From IMG/VR virus record IMGVR_UViG_3300010430_000452, positions 1 through 23,825 of that record: a stretch of 23,825 bases of DNA; one strand, written 5' to 3'. Below the pieces are notes generated by a model, which was not told where the DNA came from, ran no database searches, and saw nothing but the letters and a program-made list of their open reading frames with translations. A program made the position numbers and the translations under genes. This stretch comes from a virus. Positions 2,025 to 22,557 of the stretch are shown here, piece after piece. Numbering within the stretch: the stretch's first letter is position 1; each line of letters starts with the position of its first letter.

Positions 2025-4286
2025 ATGGCGATTCGTAAAGGTGCTGCTAACCGCTTCGCTCCTATCAAGGGGTGGGTGACTGAAGGCAACCTAGCCAACT
2101 ACCAACAAGATGTAGCACTCGACATCCAGAACATGACCATCGACCAGACAGGATTGACCGAGCGGCGCTACGGATTCTTGTCTGAGTCTGGTGACCAAGC
2201 CCTGCTACCTGAGTTCACACAGAACGCACGGGAGCGTGGCCTAATCTCCATGAAGTCATGGCAGGGTGTAGGTGATGGACTTGAGCGTAACCTGCTTATC
2301 TTCCACTCCGGTAACTACATCTATGTGTTGGAGGACAAGAGTCCTATCTCGTTTGCTAACGTCATCCTCACTATCAACCTCACTCAAGGTGGTATTGCAG
2401 TGGATGGTGGGGTAGTAGAACCATGCCACATTTCAGTGGGTATCAACTTTGCTGTGGTAACCAACCCTCGCATTAACCCCGTATTAATCACGTATGACGG
2501 TCAGGAGGACGATGGGAGCCTCATCCTAGCCTACCGTACCCTTGACCTGAAAGTACGCACACGTGACCTCCTGAAGCCATTTACGGAGGGTCCGAATTAC
2601 GGCACTGCTCTGACAGCAGAGGAAGAATGGAACTTATACAACTCTGGATGGCCTCGTTCAGCTCGTGCAAGTAACGATAGAGAAGGTGGTGCTACCTCTA
2701 CGGTGACGCCTATTAAGTATTACTTCGACAAGCGTGGGTTCTACCCAACGCACTCAGTGCTGTACTCAGCTATGAAGCTATCCAGTGCTAAGGAAGTGGC
2801 GGCTGTCGGCGCATTCTCCCCTTGGGAAGATGAGAAGATTAACTTCGGTAACACCACTCCACCTTTAGGTCGATTCGTACACAGTGCCTACTCGTTTGAC
2901 TCCCGCTCGATTATGCTTGAGCAATTGTCGGACCGTGAGGACACTGACCCTGAGTTCCCTGAAGGTACGATTCCTAAGCAGCTCCGCTTCCTCATCACAG
3001 ATGAAGGTGAGACTGTAACGTGGACTGTACGAGACAGACCTCGCTGCTCTGCCTACCACAATGGTCATGTGTACTTTGCGGACAAGGACTACCAAGGTAA
3101 GACCCGCATCCTAGTGTCACAACTAGTGTCGGACTTCGACAACATCGAGAAGTGTTACCAAGATGCAGACCCATCGGCAGAGGAAATCAATGACCTGATT
3201 GCTACTGATGGCTTCAGTATGTTCCCAGTGGGTATGGGTACGGTACTCAACATGATTGAGTTCAACCGTGGCCTGATGATTATCGCAACGAATGGTGCAT
3301 GGCAGATTAAAGGTACACAGGGTGGCGGTGCTACGGCTACTGACTTCACCATTGACCGTGTAGCGACGTTCGAGTTCTTCTCACCACAATCGGTGGTGGA
3401 TACTGGTGCAGCAATCATTCTATTCTCAGAGCGGGGCATCATTGCTATCGGGACTAACGAGTTCGGTGACATCACATCGCAGAACCTAACGGATGCGACC
3501 ATTGATGAGTATTACCAGACACTCCCTCGTTCTGTAATCAAGAACGTGAAAGGTACTTTCGTTACTGATGAGCGCCGATGCTACTGGTGTATACCGAATC
3601 CAGCAGATAGCTTGGGCAATAACCCATCGGATGCTGAGTTCGTACTAGTGCTGAACATGGACACAGGCGGCTTCTTCAAGTACACCACATCAGGTGGTCC
3701 GGTGTTACACCTACCGTACACCAAGCTAACCACTAACGTGGAGACTATCACTGACCCTATCACTGAGACAGATGGCACGCCTATCACCACTACTGGGGGT
3801 GAAGTGATTGGTACACAGCGTATCAAGACAACGTCTATCAAGTCAGAGGTTGGGTACTTCGCAAGTAACTACGACAACGGTACGTTGATTAACTTCTCAG
3901 CAGCAGCACTGGACGATACGTTCTATGATTGGAACAACATCGCAGGTGCTACACCGACTGATGCTAAAGCATTCATCGACTTCGCGTATGAGTATCCAGA
4001 GACTATGATAGGTGCAATCCAGATGCCGTATGTTCACTCGTTCTTCTTGAGTGGCATCCGTTCATCAACACCATCAATCGGTCAGGGAGCAACGTACCAC
4101 ACTGAGTACGCAGCTATCTCGTTTAATAAGCCAGAGTCACTTATGATTAAGGAGTATGCGGCAGCAACGTTCGTCAAACCAGAGGACTTGTTGACCGAGG
4201 AGATGGCAGTAGTATCGTTCTATAAACCTGACCCATTACACATTACTGGCATGGTTGTAGTATCATTCCATAAAGAAACCCCATAG
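2025..4286 (+). CDS. Tail tube nozzle-like protein (T7 gp12-like) with C-terminal repeats
   Basis: This 753-aa protein probably forms the tail nozzle. The N-terminus (residues about 8-55) has the family layout: an exposed Asn/Ala segment, an AxDIQNM stretch, then GLTERRYGFLSES, comparable to the start of T7 gp12-type proteins. The middle is long, beta-rich and propeller-like, with segments such as HNGHVYFADKDYQGKTRILV and ERGIIAIGTNEFGDI. Residues 694-753 are three full and one partial copies of a 16-residue repeat (see separate entry). The start follows TAAGGAGG, a near-ideal ribosome binding site. The adaptor-like gene lies about 1.3 kb downstream. The nozzle role is supported by the N-terminus and the position; the repeat tail is not something I associate with the family. 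Confidence 0.6.
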   Translation: MAIRKGAANRFAPIKGWVTEGNLANYQQDVALDIQNMTIDQTGLTERRYGFLSESGDQALLPEFTQNARERGLISMKSWQGVGDGLERNLLIFHSGNYIYVLEDKSPISFANVILTINLTQGGIAVDGGVVEPCHISVGINFAVVTNPRINPVLITYDGQEDDGSLILAYRTLDLKVRTRDLLKPFTEGPNYGTALTAEEEWNLYNSGWPRSARASNDREGGATSTVTPIKYYFDKRGFYPTHSVLYSAMKLSSAKEVAAVGAFSPWEDEKINFGNTTPPLGRFVHSAYSFDSRSIMLEQLSDREDTDPEFPEGTIPKQLRFLITDEGETVTWTVRDRPRCSAYHNGHVYFADKDYQGKTRILVSQLVSDFDNIEKCYQDADPSAEEINDLIATDGFSMFPVGMGTVLNMIEFNRGLMIIATNGAWQIKGTQGGGATATDFTIDRVATFEFFSPQSVVDTGAAIILFSERGIIAIGTNEFGDITSQNLTDATIDEYYQTLPRSVIKNVKGTFVTDERRCYWCIPNPADSLGNNPSDAEFVLVLNMDTGGFFKYTTSGGPVLHLPYTKLTTNVETITDPITETDGTPITTTGGEVIGTQRIKTTSIKSEVGYFASNYDNGTLINFSAAALDDTFYDWNNIAGATPTDAKAFIDFAYEYPETMIGAIQMPYVHSFFLSGIRSSTPSIGQGATYHTEYAAISFNKPESLMIKEYAAATFVKPEDLLTEEMAVVSFYKPDPLHITGMVVVSFHKETP
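4104..4283 (+). repeat. 48-bp (16-residue) degenerate tandem repeat in the nozzle-like gene
   Basis: The last 60 residues of the nozzle-like protein are four tandem units: EYAAISFNKPESLMIK, EYAAATFVKPEDLLTE, EMAVVSFYKPDPLHIT and a shortened GMVVVSFHKETP. The conserved pattern is a hydrophobic strand, then Ser/Thr-Phe, a variable residue, and Lys-Pro or a close variant. The DNA copies have diverged clearly, so the repeat is old or under protein-level selection rather than a recent slippage product. Confidence 0.85.
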
Positions 4287-4295
4287 GAGAAACAC

Positions 4296-5321
4296 ATGGC
4301 AATTTTAGATTTTGCAACTGGCTTCAGCTCAGCATTGGTGGGTAACACAGCCAACTATGAAGGTGGTGTACCTGACTCAGCTCAGAATGGTCACTACGTT
4401 CTTGAGGGAATCGAGGTGATTAACCAAGGTATCCGTGACAAGATTTGTAGCCTAAGCTGGACTGCGCGTACTGAGGTGTGGATTAGTTACTACCACTACC
4501 AAGACCAGCGAGACACAACTATCAACCAGCAAGAGATTCCCCCATTCATGATTGAGGGACTTAATGCTGATGGTGACCTACGTCGTTATGTTTACTTCGA
4601 CGTTAACGCTACCAATGACAACCGTGTTGACCTAGTAGTTGATGGACGTGTCCTGATTCCGAGCATGAACCTAGTGCCAGCAGACGGTACACGTACCCGT
4701 GTTGATGTTCATATCAAGATGGATGCGGTGAACGGTGAAGCAGATGTGTGGTTTAACCAAGCCTTAGTTGGTACGTTCCGTGGTGACACTTCGGATGTAG
4801 AGCTAACAGACTTTGACCGCTGTTCAATGGGCTTCAGTGGTGACTGGGACTTCGGTGACTTCAGTCTTAAATGGTCAGCAGCATTCGCTGCCGATGAGGA
4901 ATCAATCGGTATCACTATGGTGCAGCATGAGATTACTGGCAACGGTAGCCTACAGCAAATGTCCGGTGGATACACTGACATCAACACACTGAATGCGTTT
5001 GATGACGTGACTCGTCTTGAGTCCAACGCTACTAACCAGACCTCGACGTTTACGAAGGGCGCTACCCCGCCTATCTTCGGTACGGGCTATGACATCATCT
5101 CGGTGGGCCTATGCTCACGTGCAGCAGTAGGTGCAGCCAACAGTATCAACAACATCTCGCTAGTGATTGATGACCTGACGAACACAGTGGAGTCGGCAGA
5201 CATCGCAGTTGACCAGTTGATTCAACCACGTAAGGCATTGTTCACTACTGCGCCAGATGGCGGGGCATGGACAGCAGCTAAGCTGGATGCAACGCAAGTC
5301 GGAGTTAAGAGTAAAGCATGA
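4296..5321 (+). CDS. LamG / concanavalin-like fibre or tail protein
   Basis: This 341-aa protein has two parts. Residues about 1-200 look like a laminin-G/concanavalin-type jelly roll: strands around VWISYYHYQDQ and a characteristic block in which RVDVHIKMDAVNGEADVWF is followed by a VGTF strand, with a late strand DFGDFSLKWS. Residues about 205-341 form a second beta-rich domain. Such lectin-like modules often bind glycans or other virion proteins in phage tails. The start follows AGGAGAAACAC. The stop overlaps the next ATG in an ATGA junction, which suggests translational coupling to the 98-aa protein. A receptor-contact or tail-fibre role is likely but inferred. Confidence 0.55.
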   Translation: MAILDFATGFSSALVGNTANYEGGVPDSAQNGHYVLEGIEVINQGIRDKICSLSWTARTEVWISYYHYQDQRDTTINQQEIPPFMIEGLNADGDLRRYVYFDVNATNDNRVDLVVDGRVLIPSMNLVPADGTRTRVDVHIKMDAVNGEADVWFNQALVGTFRGDTSDVELTDFDRCSMGFSGDWDFGDFSLKWSAAFAADEESIGITMVQHEITGNGSLQQMSGGYTDINTLNAFDDVTRLESNATNQTSTFTKGATPPIFGTGYDIISVGLCSRAAVGAANSINNISLVIDDLTNTVESADIAVDQLIQPRKALFTTAPDGGAWTAAKLDATQVGVKSKA

Positions 5322-6697: not shown

Positions 6698-7168
6698 ATG
6701 AAGATTTTCAAAGCCAATGTGGAATGGTTCGTGAACAACGGTGGCCCTGCCCTAGCAGTAGCACACCTTGATGAAGCTATGCCTGTGACGGCAGCTAAGG
6801 GAGAGTTCCGTGAGGTGGACTACAAGACCTACATGGAGCTGGAACTAACAGGGAGCTTACTCATTCTGGTGGCCTTGGATGACGATGAGAAGTTAGTGGG
6901 GTATGTAGTGGGTACAGCAACCCCGTCTATCCACAACAAGGGCTTCTTTGAGTTTAACACCACTGCGTTTTATACTGTGCCAGAGCAGAGAGGCGCAGGT
7001 ATCGGGCGAATGTTATTCGACGGATTGCAACAGGTGTGCTCTGATTGTGGCGTGAGTGAGATTAACTACGTCGTGAGTGAGGGACAGCCTATGACCCATG
7101 AGGTGGTCCAGAAATTAGGTCTAATCAAGACCGAGACTATCTATACATTGAAGGTAAACCATGAGTAA
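6698..7168 (+). CDS. GNAT-family N-acetyltransferase
   Basis: This 156-aa protein is a GNAT acetyltransferase, which moves an acetyl group from acetyl-CoA to an amine. The acetyl-CoA pyrophosphate loop is seen in FYTVPEQRGAGIGRMLFDGL (residues about 88-107), with the R-G-A-G-I-G signature of motif A. Upstream strands (ILVALDDDEKLVGYVVGTA) match the core beta sheet, and the C-terminal LGLIKTETIYTLKV matches the last strands. The start follows TTTTAAGG. Its stop overlaps the start of the next gene, the glycine-zipper internal protein. The substrate is not predictable; encoding inside the structural module suggests a virion protein or a late host target. Confidence 0.85.
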   Translation: MKIFKANVEWFVNNGGPALAVAHLDEAMPVTAAKGEFREVDYKTYMELELTGSLLILVALDDDEKLVGYVVGTATPSIHNKGFFEFNTTAFYTVPEQRGAGIGRMLFDGLQQVCSDCGVSEINYVVSEGQPMTHEVVQKLGLIKTETIYTLKVNHE

Positions 7169-15153: not shown

Positions 15154-15543
15154 TTAGTATAGTGACACAGTGAGTGAGAAGGCACGGTACTCGGTGTCTG
15201 CGAGTATAGCCTCCATCGGTTGCTCTAGGTGAGCACTAGCAGCCGCATCATCCTTGAAGGGCTTATCTATACGGATGAGCTGCACCTCAGTAGGTGGTTT
15301 AATCAGGTCACGTGCATGGCACTGGTCAAGACTGCTCTCGATGTTCATAGTCTCAATCAACTTCTCCATACAAGCGACTGCCATATCCTCAGCTACAGCA
15401 CGTAGCGCTGCTCCATGCATATCGAACTGAGAGAACTTAGCTTTGTAATCATCCACCACAGCAGCAACGTACTTGTCACCTAGCATTGTGACGTACTTCA
15501 TTTCATTCAGTGCGCCCAGTGTGCGGAAGCGGTAGATAATCAT
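15154..15543 (-). CDS. Hypothetical early protein, end of leftward operon
   Basis: This 129-aa protein is the last gene of the leftward operon. It has a GGAGG ribosome binding site and an ATGA overlap with the preceding gene. The N-terminal half is helical (residues about 12-75, including GAALRAVAEDMAVACMEKL), and the C-terminal half is mixed with VQLIRIDKPF and a final FSLTVSLY strand. No catalytic or binding motif is recognised. Because it is coupled to the gene before it, which in turn overlaps the protease-like gene, the three may act together, but there is no direct evidence. Confidence 0.65.
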   Translation of the reverse strand: MIIYRFRTLGALNEMKYVTMLGDKYVAAVVDDYKAKFSQFDMHGAALRAVAEDMAVACMEKLIETMNIESSLDQCHARDLIKPPTEVQLIRIDKPFKDDAAASAHLEQPMEAILADTEYRAFSLTVSLY

Positions 15544-15881
15544 ACATGCCTCCGCTTTACTGCGTCTGCGAAGTCAGTGATGGTGTCATGAACTCCTCGC
15601 ATGTGGTTCCATCGCACTGTTGGCGGGATGGATACACTCTCAGCAACGTGGACAGTGGCCTGATACAAGGCTTCCGATGGTTCGCTGGTAAGGCTTTCAA
15701 GTATGTGCGCTTTGATAAGCTGCTTAGTGAGTAGCTGCGCCACACCGTACAGGTTGACAGGGTTGGCTTCATCGCAAGGGTACTCAGCACATACCACAGT
15801 ATCGCGTAGCTTAGCCGCAAAACGTATCTCACCACTTTTTGCAGTGCCGTCATAATATCTAATAACATTGTCTTTACTCAT
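15540..15881 (-). CDS. Hypothetical early protein next to the protease-like gene
   Basis: This 113-aa protein is read from the ATG at 15881, which overlaps the end of the HslV-like gene and has AGGAG about 7 bases upstream; a longer reading from 15941 would lie inside that gene. The sequence starts MSKDNVIRYYDGTAKSG and continues IRFAAKLRDTVVCAEYP, a beta-rich start, then helical stretches (LYGVAQLLTKQLIKAHILE). Two Cys are present but no zinc motif. It resembles its downstream neighbour in size and in having a helical segment followed by a strand-rich end, but I see no convincing homology. The function is unknown. Confidence 0.65.
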   Translation of the reverse strand: MSKDNVIRYYDGTAKSGEIRFAAKLRDTVVCAEYPCDEANPVNLYGVAQLLTKQLIKAHILESLTSEPSEALYQATVHVAESVSIPPTVRWNHMRGVHDTITDFADAVKRRHV

Positions 15882-16359
15882 CTCCTTGCTCCTGTTGAGG
15901 TGGTTGGAATAGACCGACTGTACCACCAGTACCAGAGTCACGTGTCATTGCATACTGCACTGCTTCCACAGCACTCATGCCCATGTCCATAGCAGCCAAT
16001 GCAAAGGTGTCACCGCTACCGATAGCGTAGTTGTACGTTAAGTCCCACTGTACTTGCTCAGCTTCAGCATTGTGAGTGTGCAGGTTGTACGCTACAAACT
16101 TGTCCTGCTCTGCGAAGTAGACGATAGCGCTCATCGACATATTGCGGCAATGCGTTAAGTCTTCCTCACACAGCCCTTCATCCCACAGACTAGTGACCTG
16201 TTCGATTAGAGGCACATCACCAGCAGCAGCTATAACATCACCGCTCTCGCAAGTGAATAACTTGCTCTCGTTGTCGTTGATAATCATGCCATCAGGTAGG
16301 CAGGCACGTCCATCGGTTGCGATGGTACGAGACTCATGGCGGTATGTGATTGTAGTCAT
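15874..16359 (-). CDS. HslV/proteasome beta-subunit-like Ntn hydrolase
   Basis: This 161-aa protein resembles HslV, the peptidase of the HslUV protease. It begins Met-Thr-Thr-Ile, so removal of Met would expose an N-terminal Thr, the nucleophile of this family. Counting that Thr as 1, Asp15 (in TIATDGRA) and Lys32 (in NESKLF) align with the catalytic-site Asp17 and Lys33 of HslV. Further matches are VIAAAGD and the core AIGSGDTFALAAMDMGMSA, followed by EAVQYAMTRDSGTGG, the proteasome-fold signature. The length is close to that of bacterial HslV. AAGGAAA precedes the start, and a hairpin lies just upstream. No AAA+ unfoldase is in the window, so it either works alone on peptides, borrows host HslU or needs an unseen partner. 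The target, perhaps a host regulator or capsid precursor, is unknown. Confidence 0.8.
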   Translation of the reverse strand: MTTITYRHESRTIATDGRACLPDGMIINDNESKLFTCESGDVIAAAGDVPLIEQVTSLWDEGLCEEDLTHCRNMSMSAIVYFAEQDKFVAYNLHTHNAEAEQVQWDLTYNYAIGSGDTFALAAMDMGMSAVEAVQYAMTRDSGTGGTVGLFQPPQQEQGDE

Positions 16360-16370
16360 AGGATTTCCTT

Positions 16371-16395
16371 ACGAAGAAAGGGGCACGAAGCCCCC
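16371..16395 (-). terminator. Probable terminator inside the leftward operon
   Basis: On the - strand GGGGC-TTCGT-GCCCC forms a 5-bp GC stem (arms at 16390-16394 and 16380-16384) followed by TTTCTT. It lies right after the 59-aa gene and just before the ribosome binding site of the HslV-like gene. The U tract is interrupted, so it may attenuate rather than stop transcription. Confidence 0.55.
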
Positions 16396-16398
16396 ATC

Positions 16399-16578
16399 TT
16401 ATTTCTTGGTTTGTTCAGAGAGTAGGCGCTCGTTCTTCAGAGCATCTGGATTAGCACCTGCTTCTTTCAGGCGGTCCTGCTTCTGCTCGAACTCCTCGTC
16501 AGCGAACCCCGCTTCCCAAGGGCGCTTGCCCTCACGTGTCACTGTACGTTTCTCTTGCTTGTCTTCTGGTTTACTCAT
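16399..16578 (-). CDS. Small hypothetical early protein (59 aa)
   Basis: This 59-aa protein starts MSKPEDKQEKRTVTREGKRP and continues WEAGFADEEF before a charged helix (QKQDRLKEAGANPDAL). AGGAG lies 7 bases before the ATG, and the start overlaps the end of the preceding gene by 8 bases. It ends just before a hairpin. It is highly charged, has no Cys and no membrane segment. Codon use and packing support a real gene; the function is unknown. Confidence 0.6.
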   Translation of the reverse strand: MSKPEDKQEKRTVTREGKRPWEAGFADEEFEQKQDRLKEAGANPDALKNERLLSEQTKK

Positions 16579-16765
16579 CAGCTAACTCCTGTAGTTCTCG
16601 ATAAGTTTCTATGGTCACAAAGATAAGGCGTTCACTCTCTTGGAATGCCACAGGTACATCACCTTCTTCCCAATCAGCGAACATCTTGAACCATTCTTCG
16701 GGCCGTACTTGTACTTCCCATCCATCCTGTAGCACAGGAAGTATAGACTCAACAACGGGTGTCAT
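16571..16765 (-). CDS. Small acidic hypothetical early protein
   Basis: This protein is read from the ATG at 16765, which follows the stop of the phosphatase-like gene with one base between (TAGCATG); that gives 64 aa. A start at 16783 would add six residues but would overlap the phosphatase gene, and neither has a strong ribosome binding site. The sequence includes VQVRPEEWFKMFADWEEG and a RLIFVTIETYRELQELADE end. It is acidic with several aromatics and could be a small protein-binding factor. No family is recognised. Confidence 0.6.
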   Translation of the reverse strand: MTPVVESILPVLQDGWEVQVRPEEWFKMFADWEEGDVPVAFQESERLIFVTIETYRELQELADE

Positions 16766-16766
16766 G

Positions 16767-17237
16767 CTAGTCGAGCCATTCACTCAGTGCACCGGAGACA
16801 CCGTCACCCATCTCTACGTCCATGCCCACTTCATATTCGAGGTAGGCGATTGCATCCACCAATGAGCAGCCCCACGTCTTGCATCGGTAGTAGAGGTAGA
16901 TACCTACACTGCGTGACTTACCTTGGTTACAGTTGATGAGGACAGGTACTCCCATTGCACAGGCATTAGTGATGATGGTCACTGCGTCATCGAAGATAGC
17001 CTTCGGAATAAACTCAGGCTTCGGGGAGTCAACCAAGTTGTACGCAACGAACGTTTCACGGTGTGCCATCAGGTACTCATCGCTGTCCTTCGGAGCAGCA
17101 CGTCCAGTGTACCCCACTGCCTTGCGGTGGTATGGTTCTTTAGCTGCATGTACGCAGTAGCCGCCTTCATGGTCAGCGTAGAACTCATCTACGTCTGCAT
17201 CACATCCGATGAATACACCATCTTCTACTTCAATCAT
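16767..17237 (-). CDS. Dual-specificity phosphatase-like protein
   Basis: This 156-aa protein has the phosphatase P-loop C-x5-R: Cys103-NQGKS-Arg109 in the stretch VLINCNQGKSRSVG. Cys103 would be the nucleophile and Arg109 would bind phosphate. Asp70 in NLVDSPKPEFI is a candidate general acid. The usual His before the Cys is replaced by Asn102. The block CVHAAKEPYHRKAVGYTG followed by AAPKDSDEYL matches a subgroup of this family common in phages and bacteria. The probable substrates are phosphoproteins or small phosphorylated molecules. An AAGGGAG site precedes the start, which overlaps the 58-aa gene by ATGA. It may alter host signalling during infection; that role is inferred. Confidence 0.8.
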   Translation of the reverse strand: MIEVEDGVFIGCDADVDEFYADHEGGYCVHAAKEPYHRKAVGYTGRAAPKDSDEYLMAHRETFVAYNLVDSPKPEFIPKAIFDDAVTIITNACAMGVPVLINCNQGKSRSVGIYLYYRCKTWGCSLVDAIAYLEYEVGMDVEMGDGVSGALSEWLD

Positions 17238-17410: not shown

Positions 17411-17574
17411 AGACCTTCAATCTCCGATTCATTGCCGTCATAGTCACGGCATATGTCTGCGGCTGCACGTAATTCCGCGATGGCATTTAGCGCATACGGT
17501 TCTTCTTTCTCGATGTGGTTAGCCAACGCCTCAAGGACGTCAGCTACATCACCTAAATCACTGGCACGAATCAC
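17407..17574 (-). CDS. Small hypothetical early protein with GTG start (55 aa)
   Basis: This gene starts with GTG at 17574, in a GTGA overlap with the stop of the ParB-like gene, behind AGGGGA 6 bases upstream. The 55-residue product begins VIRASDLGDVADVLEALANH and is mostly helical and acidic, ending DYDGNESEIEGL. It overlaps the next start by ATGA. The GTG start makes it easy to overlook. The function is unknown; a small regulatory or protein-binding role is possible. Confidence 0.65.
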   Translation of the reverse strand: MIRASDLGDVADVLEALANHIEKEEPYALNAIAELRAAADICRDYDGNESEIEGL

Positions 17575-18428
17575 TTGTTATCCCCTTTGTATTCGTCGTA
17601 GTCTTCCAGAATCATCACCAGTTCGTACATGTCTGCCTTATCCAAGGACAGTTCCACTTCGACATCGCCATCACCTAACTCATCGTAGTTGGAGATGAAT
17701 GATTCATAGTCCATACCTGCTAGCAACAGCTCTGCAACGGAGCGTAGCTTGGCAGCACTAAAGGCTTTAGGACCAGAGCCTCGGACTTTGTTTCCGCCCT
17801 TGTTCTCTGCCTTCTTTAGCATGTGCTCTAGGTGATTGAGTGCCTTGTCACCATGCTTGATGATGGCCTCAACAGCCACAGTACCGGACACCTTCTCTGC
17901 TCTTACAAGCTCTTTGATTTCTTCAGGAGCTTCTGCCAGTAGGAGCTTGTTGTTGACGGCGGTACGGCTAATACCCAAGCGCTTAGCAAGGGACTCAGGG
18001 GTGTAGTCACCTTCGGCCTTGATGTCAGCAATGACTTCAGCATCTTGCAGGTAGGTAAGTGGTAGGCCAGATGTACTCGCTCGCATTGTAACCTTGCGGT
18101 CAGCGGCTGAGCCTTTCCATTCTTTGACGAGGAGCAGGTCATCGTGTCCCTCCTGTTCTGCGAGTTGTTCTTTAGCAAGGTGACGGTGGAAGCCTTCAAT
18201 TACATGTGGTACACCTTCGCGCATCTCTACCAGTACGGCAGGCATCCACTCATCTTCACGCATTGAGTGCTTCCAACGTTCGAGGTGTTCTACATCTAGG
18301 TCACGGATGTTCTCGTCCCAGTTACATACGATGGATGCGATAGGGATGAGGAACTCTTTCTGTAGCGATGCACCGCTGTCCTTTGTTGCGTTGTACACGC
18401 CGCTTAGTGAGTTAGATTTTCTAGCCAT
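17571..18428 (-). CDS. ParB/Spo0J-like DNA-binding protein
   Basis: This protein is read from the ATG at 18428, which has AGGAGG just upstream; an earlier in-frame ATG at 18443 lacks a good site. The 285 residues show the ParB plan. Residues about 28-90 form the ParB N-terminal domain, with ENIRDLD and VIEGFHRHLA in place of the GERR-type box. Residues about 144-164 are a helix-turn-helix (PESLAKRLGISRTAVNNKLL). The C-terminal region (about 190-285) is acidic and ends in a charged helix. No ParA and no good parS site are visible, so it is more likely a regulator, a nuclease-like ParB or a DNA-organising protein than a partition protein. It is coupled to the preceding 57-aa gene and the following GTG gene. 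Confidence 0.75.
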   Translation of the reverse strand: MARKSNSLSGVYNATKDSGASLQKEFLIPIASIVCNWDENIRDLDVEHLERWKHSMREDEWMPAVLVEMREGVPHVIEGFHRHLAKEQLAEQEGHDDLLLVKEWKGSAADRKVTMRASTSGLPLTYLQDAEVIADIKAEGDYTPESLAKRLGISRTAVNNKLLLAEAPEEIKELVRAEKVSGTVAVEAIIKHGDKALNHLEHMLKKAENKGGNKVRGSGPKAFSAAKLRSVAELLLAGMDYESFISNYDELGDGDVEVELSLDKADMYELVMILEDYDEYKGDNK

Positions 18429-18594
18429 ATTGCCTCCTAGCAATTTCTACGGTAATCAGTTGCCACACTTCAGGGTCACGTTTAATCCACCACTTGGCAT
18501 GGGCACGTAACTGTGGCAGTGAATAGGTTTGGAAACGATTGAGCAACCGCACCCGATAGATGCGGCTGTCACTTAGTCGGATGATGTTGGACAT
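18421..18594 (-). CDS. Small basic hypothetical early protein (57 aa)
   Basis: This protein is read from the ATG at 18594, behind GGGGAG, inside the end of the membrane-protein gene (22-base overlap); a longer reading from 18657 would overlap it much more. The 57 residues are basic and aromatic: MSNIIRLSDSRIYRVRLLNR, then FQTYSLPQLRAHAKWWIKRD. It overlaps the start of the ParB-like gene by 8 bases. It may bind nucleic acid given its charge, but no motif is recognised. Confidence 0.55.
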   Translation of the reverse strand: MSNIIRLSDSRIYRVRLLNRFQTYSLPQLRAHAKWWIKRDPEVWQLITVEIARRQYG

Positions 18595-19479: not shown

Positions 19480-20016
19480 TCACCACTTCTTACCACCCGC
19501 TGCATCACGCACTTCAGGGTCATGGTCAGGTCTGTTCTTGTTGTACTGAATCTTGGCTTCCATGATTTGCTCCATGCAGTAGCCTTCACGAGCTACGATA
19601 CGGTAGGCCAAGACAGCCGCACGCTGTAGCTGATGGGTATGGAACAAGTTACCACGCTGTAGCCACGCCTCACTGATGCAGGCATGTAGGTTTGCTAGGT
19701 CAGTGGGCATGTCATCAGTCAGCTTCCATTCAGATAGCCCGTCATCCCAGTTCACCTTCTTAGCACCGAGGTAATCAAGGATACGGATAGCTGTGTCCGC
19801 CATCTCTACCACCACCATCGGGTACTCCACGAGATGGGTGTCCAGTAGTATCTTGCGTAGACCTTCGACACCTTCACTCACTTCGGAGTGGAACAGGCAG
19901 ATGAACTGAGCTGTGCTGCGCTCGCCAGTGTGCCAACCTTTCTCACAGTTCTGCTTGTAGATGGCAGGCTGTATCTGCTTGTAGTAATCAGTGATGATGT
20001 GTAGTGGTTTAGCCAT
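19480..20016 (-). CDS. MazG-like nucleotide pyrophosphohydrolase
   Basis: This protein is read from the ATG at 20016, which has GGGAG 9 bases upstream and lies near the preceding stop; the longer reading from 20064 is less likely. The 178 residues fit the all-alpha NTP pyrophosphohydrolase family: the metal-binding pair Glu45-x2-Glu48 in LFHSEVSEGVEGLRK, then Glu71-x2-Asp74 in VEMADTAIRILDYL, and the C-terminal AKIQYNKNRPDHD that is typical of phage members. Such enzymes hydrolyse NTPs or dNTPs, sometimes including (p)ppGpp-related substrates, and may clean up nucleotide pools or ease the stringent response. The substrate cannot be read from sequence. Confidence 0.8.
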   Translation of the reverse strand: MAKPLHIITDYYKQIQPAIYKQNCEKGWHTGERSTAQFICLFHSEVSEGVEGLRKILLDTHLVEYPMVVVEMADTAIRILDYLGAKKVNWDDGLSEWKLTDDMPTDLANLHACISEAWLQRGNLFHTHQLQRAAVLAYRIVAREGYCMEQIMEAKIQYNKNRPDHDPEVRDAAGGKKW

Positions 20017-20281
20017 CGGCAATCTCCCATGTGTTAGTGATGATAAGTGACTCGCCCTCAGCAAGAGGCATTACTGCACCTAGCGCAAGCTGTGGCATTA
20101 CGTCGCCTACTTCGTAGCCATCTTCTGAGTCTTTCTGCTGAATGACTGTAGCTCTAGCAGCTCTGCCATTTATAGCCGTGATTAGGACTACACGCCCTGC
20201 ATCAGTTATAGCCCAGTAAGGCAGCTTCAATTCCTTCTTAGGCTCGTAAGGTATTCTGTCGTGTTGGATTAGGTAGCCCAT
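20009..20281 (-). CDS. Hypothetical early protein
   Basis: This protein is read from the ATG at 20281, adjacent to the exonuclease stop, with a G-rich ribosome binding site; a longer reading from 20347 would lie inside the exonuclease gene. The 90-aa product begins MGYLIQHDRIPYEPKKELKL and has alternating strands (AGRVVLITAINGRAARATVI), so it is probably a small beta-barrel. It ends ESLIITNTWEIADG, with its stop overlapping the MazG-like start. There is no named family, but the flanking exonuclease and pyrophosphohydrolase place it in the DNA-metabolism block. Confidence 0.6.
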   Translation of the reverse strand: MGYLIQHDRIPYEPKKELKLPYWAITDAGRVVLITAINGRAARATVIQQKDSEDGYEVGDVMPQLALGAVMPLAEGESLIITNTWEIADG

Positions 20282-20282
20282 G

Positions 20283-21260
20283 CTAGTCCCCCCATGTGAA
20301 CTTGGTGTGTTGGTAACGACGTAGGAACAGTAGGTTAGCTGTCTCACACAGCATCTCCTGCCACGTCAGGTGAGTGATGCCATCTTCTGCCATGACACCG
20401 TCTGGATACTTGCGTTCGTATTCTTGGGCAACGAACTTAGCCATGTCCCCTTCAGTAATGAACTGACTGATAGCAGCAGTCGAGGTCTTGATACCCCAGC
20501 CTGACTTCTGTCTATCACCGGACAGTCCTTTGATGTTATCAATGCGGTCACCCATCAACATCTGGATGTATAGGTTACGGCAAGCCTCAAGCTCCGTGAC
20601 ATACACCACACCTTCCTTCATCTTGTTCGGGTTGAGGTGGTAGCCCATCACTGTGCGTAAGTCCTTATCGGGTGAGCACACAATCACACGGCCCACGTTG
20701 TTACGTGCAGCAGATGCCATCGAGTCGTCGGCCTCCAAGCCTTGGCACACGGTGGCCTTGAACGCCTTCTCCATGAATGAACGGATGTCGTCATAGTAGA
20801 CAGGCTTCTCCATATCCTTACGGTTATCTTTGTAACCTTGGATGGTGGCATCATCATTGCGCCATAGCGTAGAGCCTTTGGTTAAGAACCACGCCTGCTT
20901 AGCACCACGCACAGCAGTGTTAATCTGCTTCTTCTTGTTACGTAGTATGAGGCGGCACTTATCAAAGTCTTCCACCCAGTGGAGGGTGTCTAAGTTATCG
21001 AAGTCAATGTTAGCAGCACGGTCTGGATGTTTCTTACACCACGCATTGAACTCTGACTTCTTAACCCAATGCCCTACGAACTTACCATCCTTCGTATAAG
21101 CAATAGGCTCGTTGTGTTCAACAGAGAACCCCGCTGCGTACACGAACGGGTCGCCATCTACCAGTGTTCGACATTCTTTGAAAGGGAGTTTGTCACGTAC
21201 TGGCTCGTCGGTGAGTGGCTCGAATGGGTCTGCCATATAGGGCAAAGGGTTAATCAGCAT
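20283..21260 (-). CDS. 5'-3' exonuclease (FEN/T5 D15-like)
   Basis: This 325-aa protein is a FEN-type nuclease that removes 5' ends or flaps. The acidic metal-binding residues appear in order: Asp35/Asp37 in LVDGDPFVY, Glu176 and Asp178-179 in GLEADDSMASAA, Asp198 and Asp200 in SPDKDLRTVMG, and Asp238/Asp241 in MGDRIDNIKGLSG. The last segment is followed by the GWGIKTSTAA region, which fits the DNA-binding helix-turn. The start at 21260 has AAGGAG 6-7 bases upstream, inside the end of the 51-aa gene. It probably acts in primer removal, recombination or host DNA breakdown, as T7 gp6 does. The C-terminus is about 25 residues after a typical FEN end, with a Trp-rich tail. Confidence 0.85.
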   Translation of the reverse strand: MLINPLPYMADPFEPLTDEPVRDKLPFKECRTLVDGDPFVYAAGFSVEHNEPIAYTKDGKFVGHWVKKSEFNAWCKKHPDRAANIDFDNLDTLHWVEDFDKCRLILRNKKKQINTAVRGAKQAWFLTKGSTLWRNDDATIQGYKDNRKDMEKPVYYDDIRSFMEKAFKATVCQGLEADDSMASAARNNVGRVIVCSPDKDLRTVMGYHLNPNKMKEGVVYVTELEACRNLYIQMLMGDRIDNIKGLSGDRQKSGWGIKTSTAAISQFITEGDMAKFVAQEYERKYPDGVMAEDGITHLTWQEMLCETANLLFLRRYQHTKFTWGD

Positions 21261-21681: not shown

Positions 21682-21958
21682 CTTCCTGCCCCTTCAGCTT
21701 GGTGTGTAGTTCTTGTAGCTGTGCTACATCCAGACCCTCCAACTCACGTCGGATACCTGCACGGCTAGGTACACCCACCTGTGACACATCGTGGATGTCA
21801 GCAAAGCGGTGCGCCAAACGCATAGCCACTTCGTTCTTGAATACGAATCCGCTGTTCGTCCATGCAGAGTGTGGCTTCTTGCCACGGCTACGGTTGCGCT
21901 TAGCACGCTTGGTTTGCAGTGCGTTACGCTCTTGCTTAGTAGTGTGTTCTTTCTTCAT
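21671..21958 (-). CDS. Basic hypothetical early protein (95 aa)
   Basis: This 95-aa protein is coupled to the winged-helix gene by an ATGA overlap and overlaps the SEC-C gene. The N-terminal 30 residues are very basic (KQERNALQTKRAKRNRSRGK), followed by helical segments and an EGLDVAQLQELHTKLKGQE end. The basic start suggests nucleic-acid binding. No named family is recognised. Context places it with DNA-binding and regulatory factors. Confidence 0.6.
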   Translation of the reverse strand: MKKEHTTKQERNALQTKRAKRNRSRGKKPHSAWTNSGFVFKNEVAMRLAHRFADIHDVSQVGVPSRAGIRRELEGLDVAQLQELHTKLKGQEDGQ

Positions 21959-22557
21959 CGGTTGTCTTCCTCTAGTACAACATACGATACGCGCTTAATC
22001 TTAACGCGCTCCTTCTGGCTTTGGATGCTGGATAGCACTCGGCAGATTGAGGACTTATGTATCCCCAGCTCGAACTCTATCTCAGCGAGGGAAGCCTTAC
22101 CCCCTTTCTCTATGATGAAGTCAACGACGGTATCAAGCTGTGACTTGTACTCGTACGTGTTCTCCTCATCCCAGATGTACACCCCATCACGTAGACGCTG
22201 GCAGCATGTCAGTGTTCTAGTTAGACGGGCCATACGATTAGAACAATCATGACGCGACAGGTCACCCAGTGCCTTAGACACCTGAAGGGGAGACACTTCC
22301 TCCCCCTTGTGTTGCTCCCACCACTCAATGATGCGCGTCTCTATCGTAGCCTTCGTTCCCACTGGCTCATCTGAGTAGACGAACTCACCCTGACCTACAC
22401 GGTAGATGCCGACGTCTTGGTTGTACGTCAGTCTATACAGGGCTGTACGGGTGGAGGCGAATGGTAGGTCCAATGCGTTAGCAATGTGCTGAGCTGTCTT
22501 GGCCTTACCTTTGAATGACTTTAGGTAGTCGTGTATCAGTTGAGTGTTGGCTTTCAT
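21955..22557 (-). CDS. Triple winged-helix DNA-binding protein
   Basis: This 200-aa protein appears to contain three winged-helix units in tandem. Unit 1 (residues about 5-62) has TAQHIANALDLPFASTRTAL and a wing VGIYRVGQGEFVY. Unit 2 (about 72-130) has SPLQVSKALGDLSRHDCSNR and a wing RDGVYIWD. Unit 3 (about 140-196) has SLAEIEFELGIHKSSICRVL and a wing VKIKRVSYVVL. Each begins with a helix, then a recognition-helix pattern and a strand. It is probably a transcription or replication regulator acting early. Three units may bind repeated DNA sites. Assignment is by pattern; specificity is not known. Confidence 0.65.
   Translation of the reverse strand: MKANTQLIHDYLKSFKGKAKTAQHIANALDLPFASTRTALYRLTYNQDVGIYRVGQGEFVYSDEPVGTKATIETRIIEWWEQHKGEEVSPLQVSKALGDLSRHDCSNRMARLTRTLTCCQRLRDGVYIWDEENTYEYKSQLDTVVDFIIEKGGKASLAEIEFELGIHKSSICRVLSSIQSQKERVKIKRVSYVVLEEDNR

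Follow-up and report, generated by a model that had tools for sequence, protein, structure and literature searches.

A probable divergent member of the phage proteasome-homologue family PPH in a relative of Vibrio phage VpV262

The proteasome homologues of phages and their hosts (PPH), as Fuchs, Alva and Lupas (2021) defined them, are proteins of about 140 residues that occur in phages and prophages, lack a propeptide and helix H2 (missing in the published description of PPH/RPC), and have no known function (PMC8665760). No co-occurring AAA+ interactors could be identified for these homologues (Fuchs et al. 2021, PMC8665760), and a phage paper already records HslV without HslU (PMC7823757). 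The HslV residues that contact HslU or line the pore are 54, 57, 79-80, 114 and 86/89/90 (PMC6429459, PMC5777263). The related BPH showed no activity on peptides or casein in standard assays, although its active site is intact (PMC5777263). The superfamily also includes connectase, a protein ligase without H1 and H2 (PMC8665760). We found no measured activity or functional study of any PPH in the open-access literature.

Here we analyse a 23,825-nucleotide stretch of viral DNA (positions 1 to 23,825 of IMG/VR record IMGVR_UViG_3300010430_000452; hereafter the window), whose source is a marine-type virus of bacteria. The window carries a genuine gene, and divergent membership of the described family PPH accounts well for its product. 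A preliminary description had called its product a proteasome/HslV-like protease without a visible ATPase partner. The family itself has been described before and occurs in many phages; what the window protein adds is a probable divergent member.

The gene and its catalytic residues

The PPH gene is an ATG-initiated open reading frame on the minus strand (Table 1). About 7 nt 5' of the start there is a Shine-Dalgarno-like AAGGA, and the stop overlaps the start of the next gene (GATGAGTAA). The place of the gene is conserved in VpV262, and the reading frame picked out in the preliminary description proved to be a real gene with unchanged boundaries. The protein has no propeptide and starts with Met-Thr, as do its relatives.

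Numbered from the Thr that follows Met, residues Thr1, Asp15 and Lys32 of the window protein are equivalent to proteasome Thr1, Asp17 and Lys33, and residues 112-130 (AIGSGDTFALAAMDMGMSA) match the GSG/Ser129 motif. These three residues and the motif core, on which the protease assignment had been based, are all present and are nearly invariant in 78 phage relatives (a non-redundant set, <90% identity). The equivalent of Asp166 was kept in 77 of the 78, and the D-x-x-[ST]-G-G motif takes the form DSGTGG in the window protein, with Thr replacing Ser. The perfect count for Thr1 arises partly by construction, as many fetch patterns span the N-terminus and non-MTT starts were dropped; counts for the other catalytic residues are mostly unaffected by this selection. 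M1, T2, D16 and K33 (protein numbering) were also invariant across 17 aligned phage proteins, a set free of fetch-pattern bias (16 of the 17 came from tblastn hits and a neighbour). Loss of the Thr in close homologues had been named as a reason to abandon the assignment; the Thr was retained in both sets. Judged by its sequence, the window protein is catalytically intact. A median dN/dS of 0.13 between close pairs indicates that PPH relatives are under purifying selection.

Table 1. Positions of the PPH gene, its predicted catalytic codons and the neighbouring genes in the window
Feature	Position	Strand	Evidence
PPH gene, proteasome-homologue threonine protease, 161 aa, PHROG 1040	15874..16359	-	ORF; PHROG 1040 E=1e-23; AlphaFold pLDDT 95.4; VIA-align Z 17.2 to HslV 1e94_A
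Ribosome-binding region of PPH gene (AAGGA)	16360..16380	-	Sequence
Thr1 codon, predicted catalytic N-terminal nucleophile after Met removal	16354..16356	-	Sequence; 78/78, partly by construction
Codon of Asp equivalent to proteasome Asp17	16312..16314	-	Sequence; conserved in 76/78
Codon of Lys equivalent to proteasome Lys33	16261..16263	-	Sequence; conserved in 78/78
Oxyanion-hole Gly codon	16219..16221	-	Conserved in 77/78
Gly-Ser-Gly motif with Ser129 equivalent	16012..16020	-	G 78/78, S 76/78, G 78/78
Asp-Ser-Gly-Thr-Gly-Gly, equivalent to proteasome-beta Asp166-x-x-Ser/Thr169-Gly-Gly motif	15922..15939	-	In 76/78 relatives; no match in E. coli HslV
Downstream gene beginning MSKDNVIRYYDG	15540..15881	-	Start overlaps PPH stop; 70% to VpV262
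Small upstream gene	16399..16578	-	64% to VpV262
Dual-specificity phosphatase, same operon here and neighbour in VpV262	16767..17237	-	DSPc E=1.6e-7 (slightly below Pfam cut-off); 72% to VpV262
ParB-like protein, same operon here and neighbour in VpV262	17571..18443	-	PHROG 1033 E=1e-46; 74% to VpV262

Family assignment and predicted fold

The window protein fits best as a divergent member of PPH and of PHROG 1040 ('peptidase HslV family'), the latter matching its residues 1-158. The PHROG 1040 match, the VpV262 orthologue in conserved gene order and the structural similarity to HslV put the resemblance well beyond what chance would give. It is 33-36% identical to smaller PPH members, and relatives are 136-162 residues long, apart from forms of 186-288 residues. 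Its score against Pfam Proteasome was sub-threshold (E=0.039), and it reached 24 bits against the archaeal proteasome beta model (cut-off 224) and 12.7 and 13.2 bits against the NCBIfam HslV models (cut-offs 157.75 and 137, respectively). A single-sequence search of the PDB with the window protein found no relative. With a profile of the PPH family, the best PDB matches were beta5/beta8 proteasome subunits (E=1e-12), and the profile scored PSMB8 at 51 bits versus 29 bits for E. coli HslV. In a tree of 32 proteins, which is weak given its long branches, HslV formed a monophyletic clade (100/100) that did not contain the window protein. The window protein and that of VpV262 formed a pair (99/98 support), while deeper PPH branches, including the position of this pair, were unsupported.

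The AlphaFold model (43 input sequences, pTM 0.88) superposed with VIA-align on E. coli HslV over 145 residues at 2.5 A (Z 17.2), with residue 2 (Thr1) lying on the start of HslV. Matches to BPH (5ovt_A, Z 16.5) and to 20S beta5 subunits (Z 16-16.6; yeast beta5 about 16.5) were similar. As Z differences below 1 are ties, the fold does not tell which family is nearest. The top match in a library of viral structures was the VpV262 protein. Helices assigned by DSSP span residues 49-57, 117-125 and 130-140, with one four-residue turn at 65-68. Thus, H1, H3 and H4 are present and H2 is missing, and strands 3 and 4 of the model are not separated by a helical insertion of the connectase type. By sequence and model, the window protein is an Ntn-type threonine protease of the proteasome superfamily, and the structure prediction proposed as a check in the preliminary description bore out that much. 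The narrower label 'HslV-type' did not hold for HslV proper: the family cut-offs, the tree and the missing H2 rule out an HslV orthologue.

Compared with the closest described systems, the window protein most resembles PPH, with which it shares phage origin, an intact triad and the lack of a propeptide, of H2 and of an AAA+ partner, although at 161 residues it is longer than the published length (PMC8665760). It has the fold, the Thr1/Asp/Lys set and the GSG motif in common with HslV (ClpQ, TIGR03692), but has neither H2 nor the pore segment, is not accompanied by an HslU gene and carries the proteasome-type DxxTGG motif. The 20S proteasome beta subunits (beta5/beta8) have a similar RDxxSGG-type motif, whereas the window protein has no propeptide, is shorter by the H2 region and has no alpha subunit in the phage. 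BPH (5OVS/5OVT) is alike in fold, in the lack of a propeptide and in having no known AAA+ partner, but H2 and the long acidic pore loop that follows it in BPH are both absent from the window protein.

Genomic setting and distribution

A 42,023-base contig of the same phage, IMGVR_UViG_3300006467_000441, contains the window in reverse orientation, with 99.96% identity over all 23,825 bases. The gene order is exonuclease, pyrophosphatase, HNH, ParB, dual-specificity phosphatase, a small gene and PPH, followed by convergent virion genes. The order around PPH matches that in Vibrio phage VpV262, a related member of the Zobellviridae. The phosphatase mentioned in the preliminary description is real, as shown by its DSPc match, and the operon is a replication-side one. 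The VpV262 orthologue (ORF47, NP_640302.1; tblastn E=2e-22) is the sister of the window protein in the tree. It is encoded at 20001-20561 in the VpV262 stretch, has an insertion and is only 38.5% identical to the window protein, whereas most flanking genes are 64-75% identical. This contrast suggests local fast change, or replacement, of PPH. PPH was below the neighbour median in just 41% of 325 pairs of related loci; a generally fast-evolving PPH was rejected, and the VpV262 contrast is local. Two small or regulatory open reading frames (21955-22557 and 16571-16783) are likewise near 39% to VpV262. The ParB-like gene, shared with VpV262, sits in a podovirus-type genome, and a probable GNAT-type acetyltransferase gene (6698-7168; 68% to VpV262) lies among the virion genes.

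The absence of a visible ATPase partner extends to the larger contig, where no match to HslU, AAA or AAA_2 was found (the contig is possibly incomplete). Its sole open reading frame with a canonical Walker A motif encodes a DnaB-like helicase. VpV262 also gave no match to HslU or AAA_2. A missing ATPase gene is the rule among these homologues and not a peculiarity of this phage.

PPH relatives were found in other phages, as the preliminary description had proposed to check. In tblastn searches the window protein matched 120 phage records, the Medea1 homologue matched 469 and the homologue of Vibrio phage 1.193.O matched 329; the three lists overlap. One PPH subgroup alone accounted for 363 stretches in viral contigs. 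A scan of bacterial genomes with a second subgroup gave mainly Pseudomonas, and the scan with one marine subgroup found nothing. Among the hundreds of sequenced phage records with PPH are some from phages whose hosts are tractable (Escherichia, Salmonella, Pseudomonas and Vibrio). No constant genomic partner emerged: in temperate loci of the Pseudomonas type the recurring genes are terminase, portal and NinG, and elsewhere PPH lies beside PhoH, primase, DnaB or lysis genes. This varying position fits an accessory role.

Possible function and variant forms

From its sequence and model, we lean towards the window protein being an ATP-independent, proteasome-fold N-terminal-threonine protease of the PPH class, an accessory enzyme that would need no HslU. 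Its role would most likely be in takeover or clean-up. Host methionine aminopeptidase would remove Met and expose Thr1, which Lys32 together with Asp15 would deprotonate, and the subunits would assemble via H3/H4 contacts. With no H2 gate, the active sites would be open to unfolded segments or peptides, so that cleavage could proceed without ATP and without HslU. Gene order suggests co-expression with the ParB and phosphatase genes, and the protein may trim or remove a limited number of proteins of the host or the phage. Given the inertness of BPH in standard assays, PPH may well depend on a hidden activator or accept only a few substrates. If PPH does work alone, a gated ATP-dependent machine has been pared down to a simple viral enzyme.

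A more specialised role, as a counter-defence or takeover protease of narrow specificity whose cleavage target is a single regulator or defence protein of the host, appears unlikely. The low identity to the VpV262 protein relative to its flanks is what a conflict gene could show, and the distribution among phages is wide and mosaic. However, across the 325 pairs of loci PPH does not generally change faster than its neighbours, and PADLOC gave no match for PPH or the genes around it. We regard as quite unlikely the bolder proposal that PPH are free-standing viral proteasomes that, having lost the gate, cleave particular host proteins independently of ATP, the VpV262-type lineage being a fast-changing version that tracks its host target.

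The preliminary description had also raised pairing with host HslU. The window protein would then dock on HslU in place of host HslV and redirect HslU-dependent degradation. Its fold is close to that of HslV, and of the 13 genomes with PPH relatives that were tested, 10 had HslU over the cut-off. The other three, which count against docking, are metagenome-assembled genomes (MAGs labelled Peregrinibacteria, Komeilibacteria and Methylotenera) that have PPH genes on their contigs but neither HslU over the cut-off nor a Proteasome-family match; they may be incomplete or mis-binned, and the host HslU distribution is uninformative. Against docking, HslV positions ~64-90, which include the Ala79/Lys80 contacts and the Arg86/Arg89/Lys90 pore cluster, are mostly gapped in the alignment with the window protein. 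Pairing is disfavoured because most of this segment is missing. In BPH, moreover, the interface residues are not conserved, and BPH was not found associated with HslU (PMC5777263). We therefore consider HslU docking very unlikely.

That the window protein is a protein ligase or another non-hydrolytic Ntn enzyme is suggested by the presence of connectase in the superfamily, but it retains the full proteasome catalytic set and its model has no connectase-type insertion, which makes this reading highly improbable. A prohead-type protease acting in head maturation is hardly credible. In its favour, the gene lies near head or terminase genes in Gungnir39, VaS_L1, 2.095.A and Medea1, and temperate loci repeatedly have portal and terminase genes close by. 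Against it, in this phage and VpV262 the gene belongs to an oppositely oriented replication-side operon and elsewhere it adjoins PhoH, primase or DnaB genes, with no constant position.

Several variant forms were seen among the relatives. Several large phages of 124-148 kb carry a longer PPH form (217-288 residues, with an RPC-like C-terminal extension) close to a PhoH-like gene. Aeromonas phage 4L372XY has a tandem pair of distinct proteasome-type genes, of 183 and 275 residues (locus 3432-4828), both annotated 'peptidase HslV family', whose products could form a two-subunit complex; in phAPEC8 and Eryne the gene upstream (PHROG 14834) cannot be recognised as a homologue. Gp16 of Microbacterium phage LeeroyJenkins ('protease'; locus 3638-4168) is an intact PHROG 1040 member (E=7e-31) of AAH or PPH type from an actinobacterial phage; for the AAH type, Fuchs et al. 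reported no phage specific to Actinobacteria (PMC8665760).
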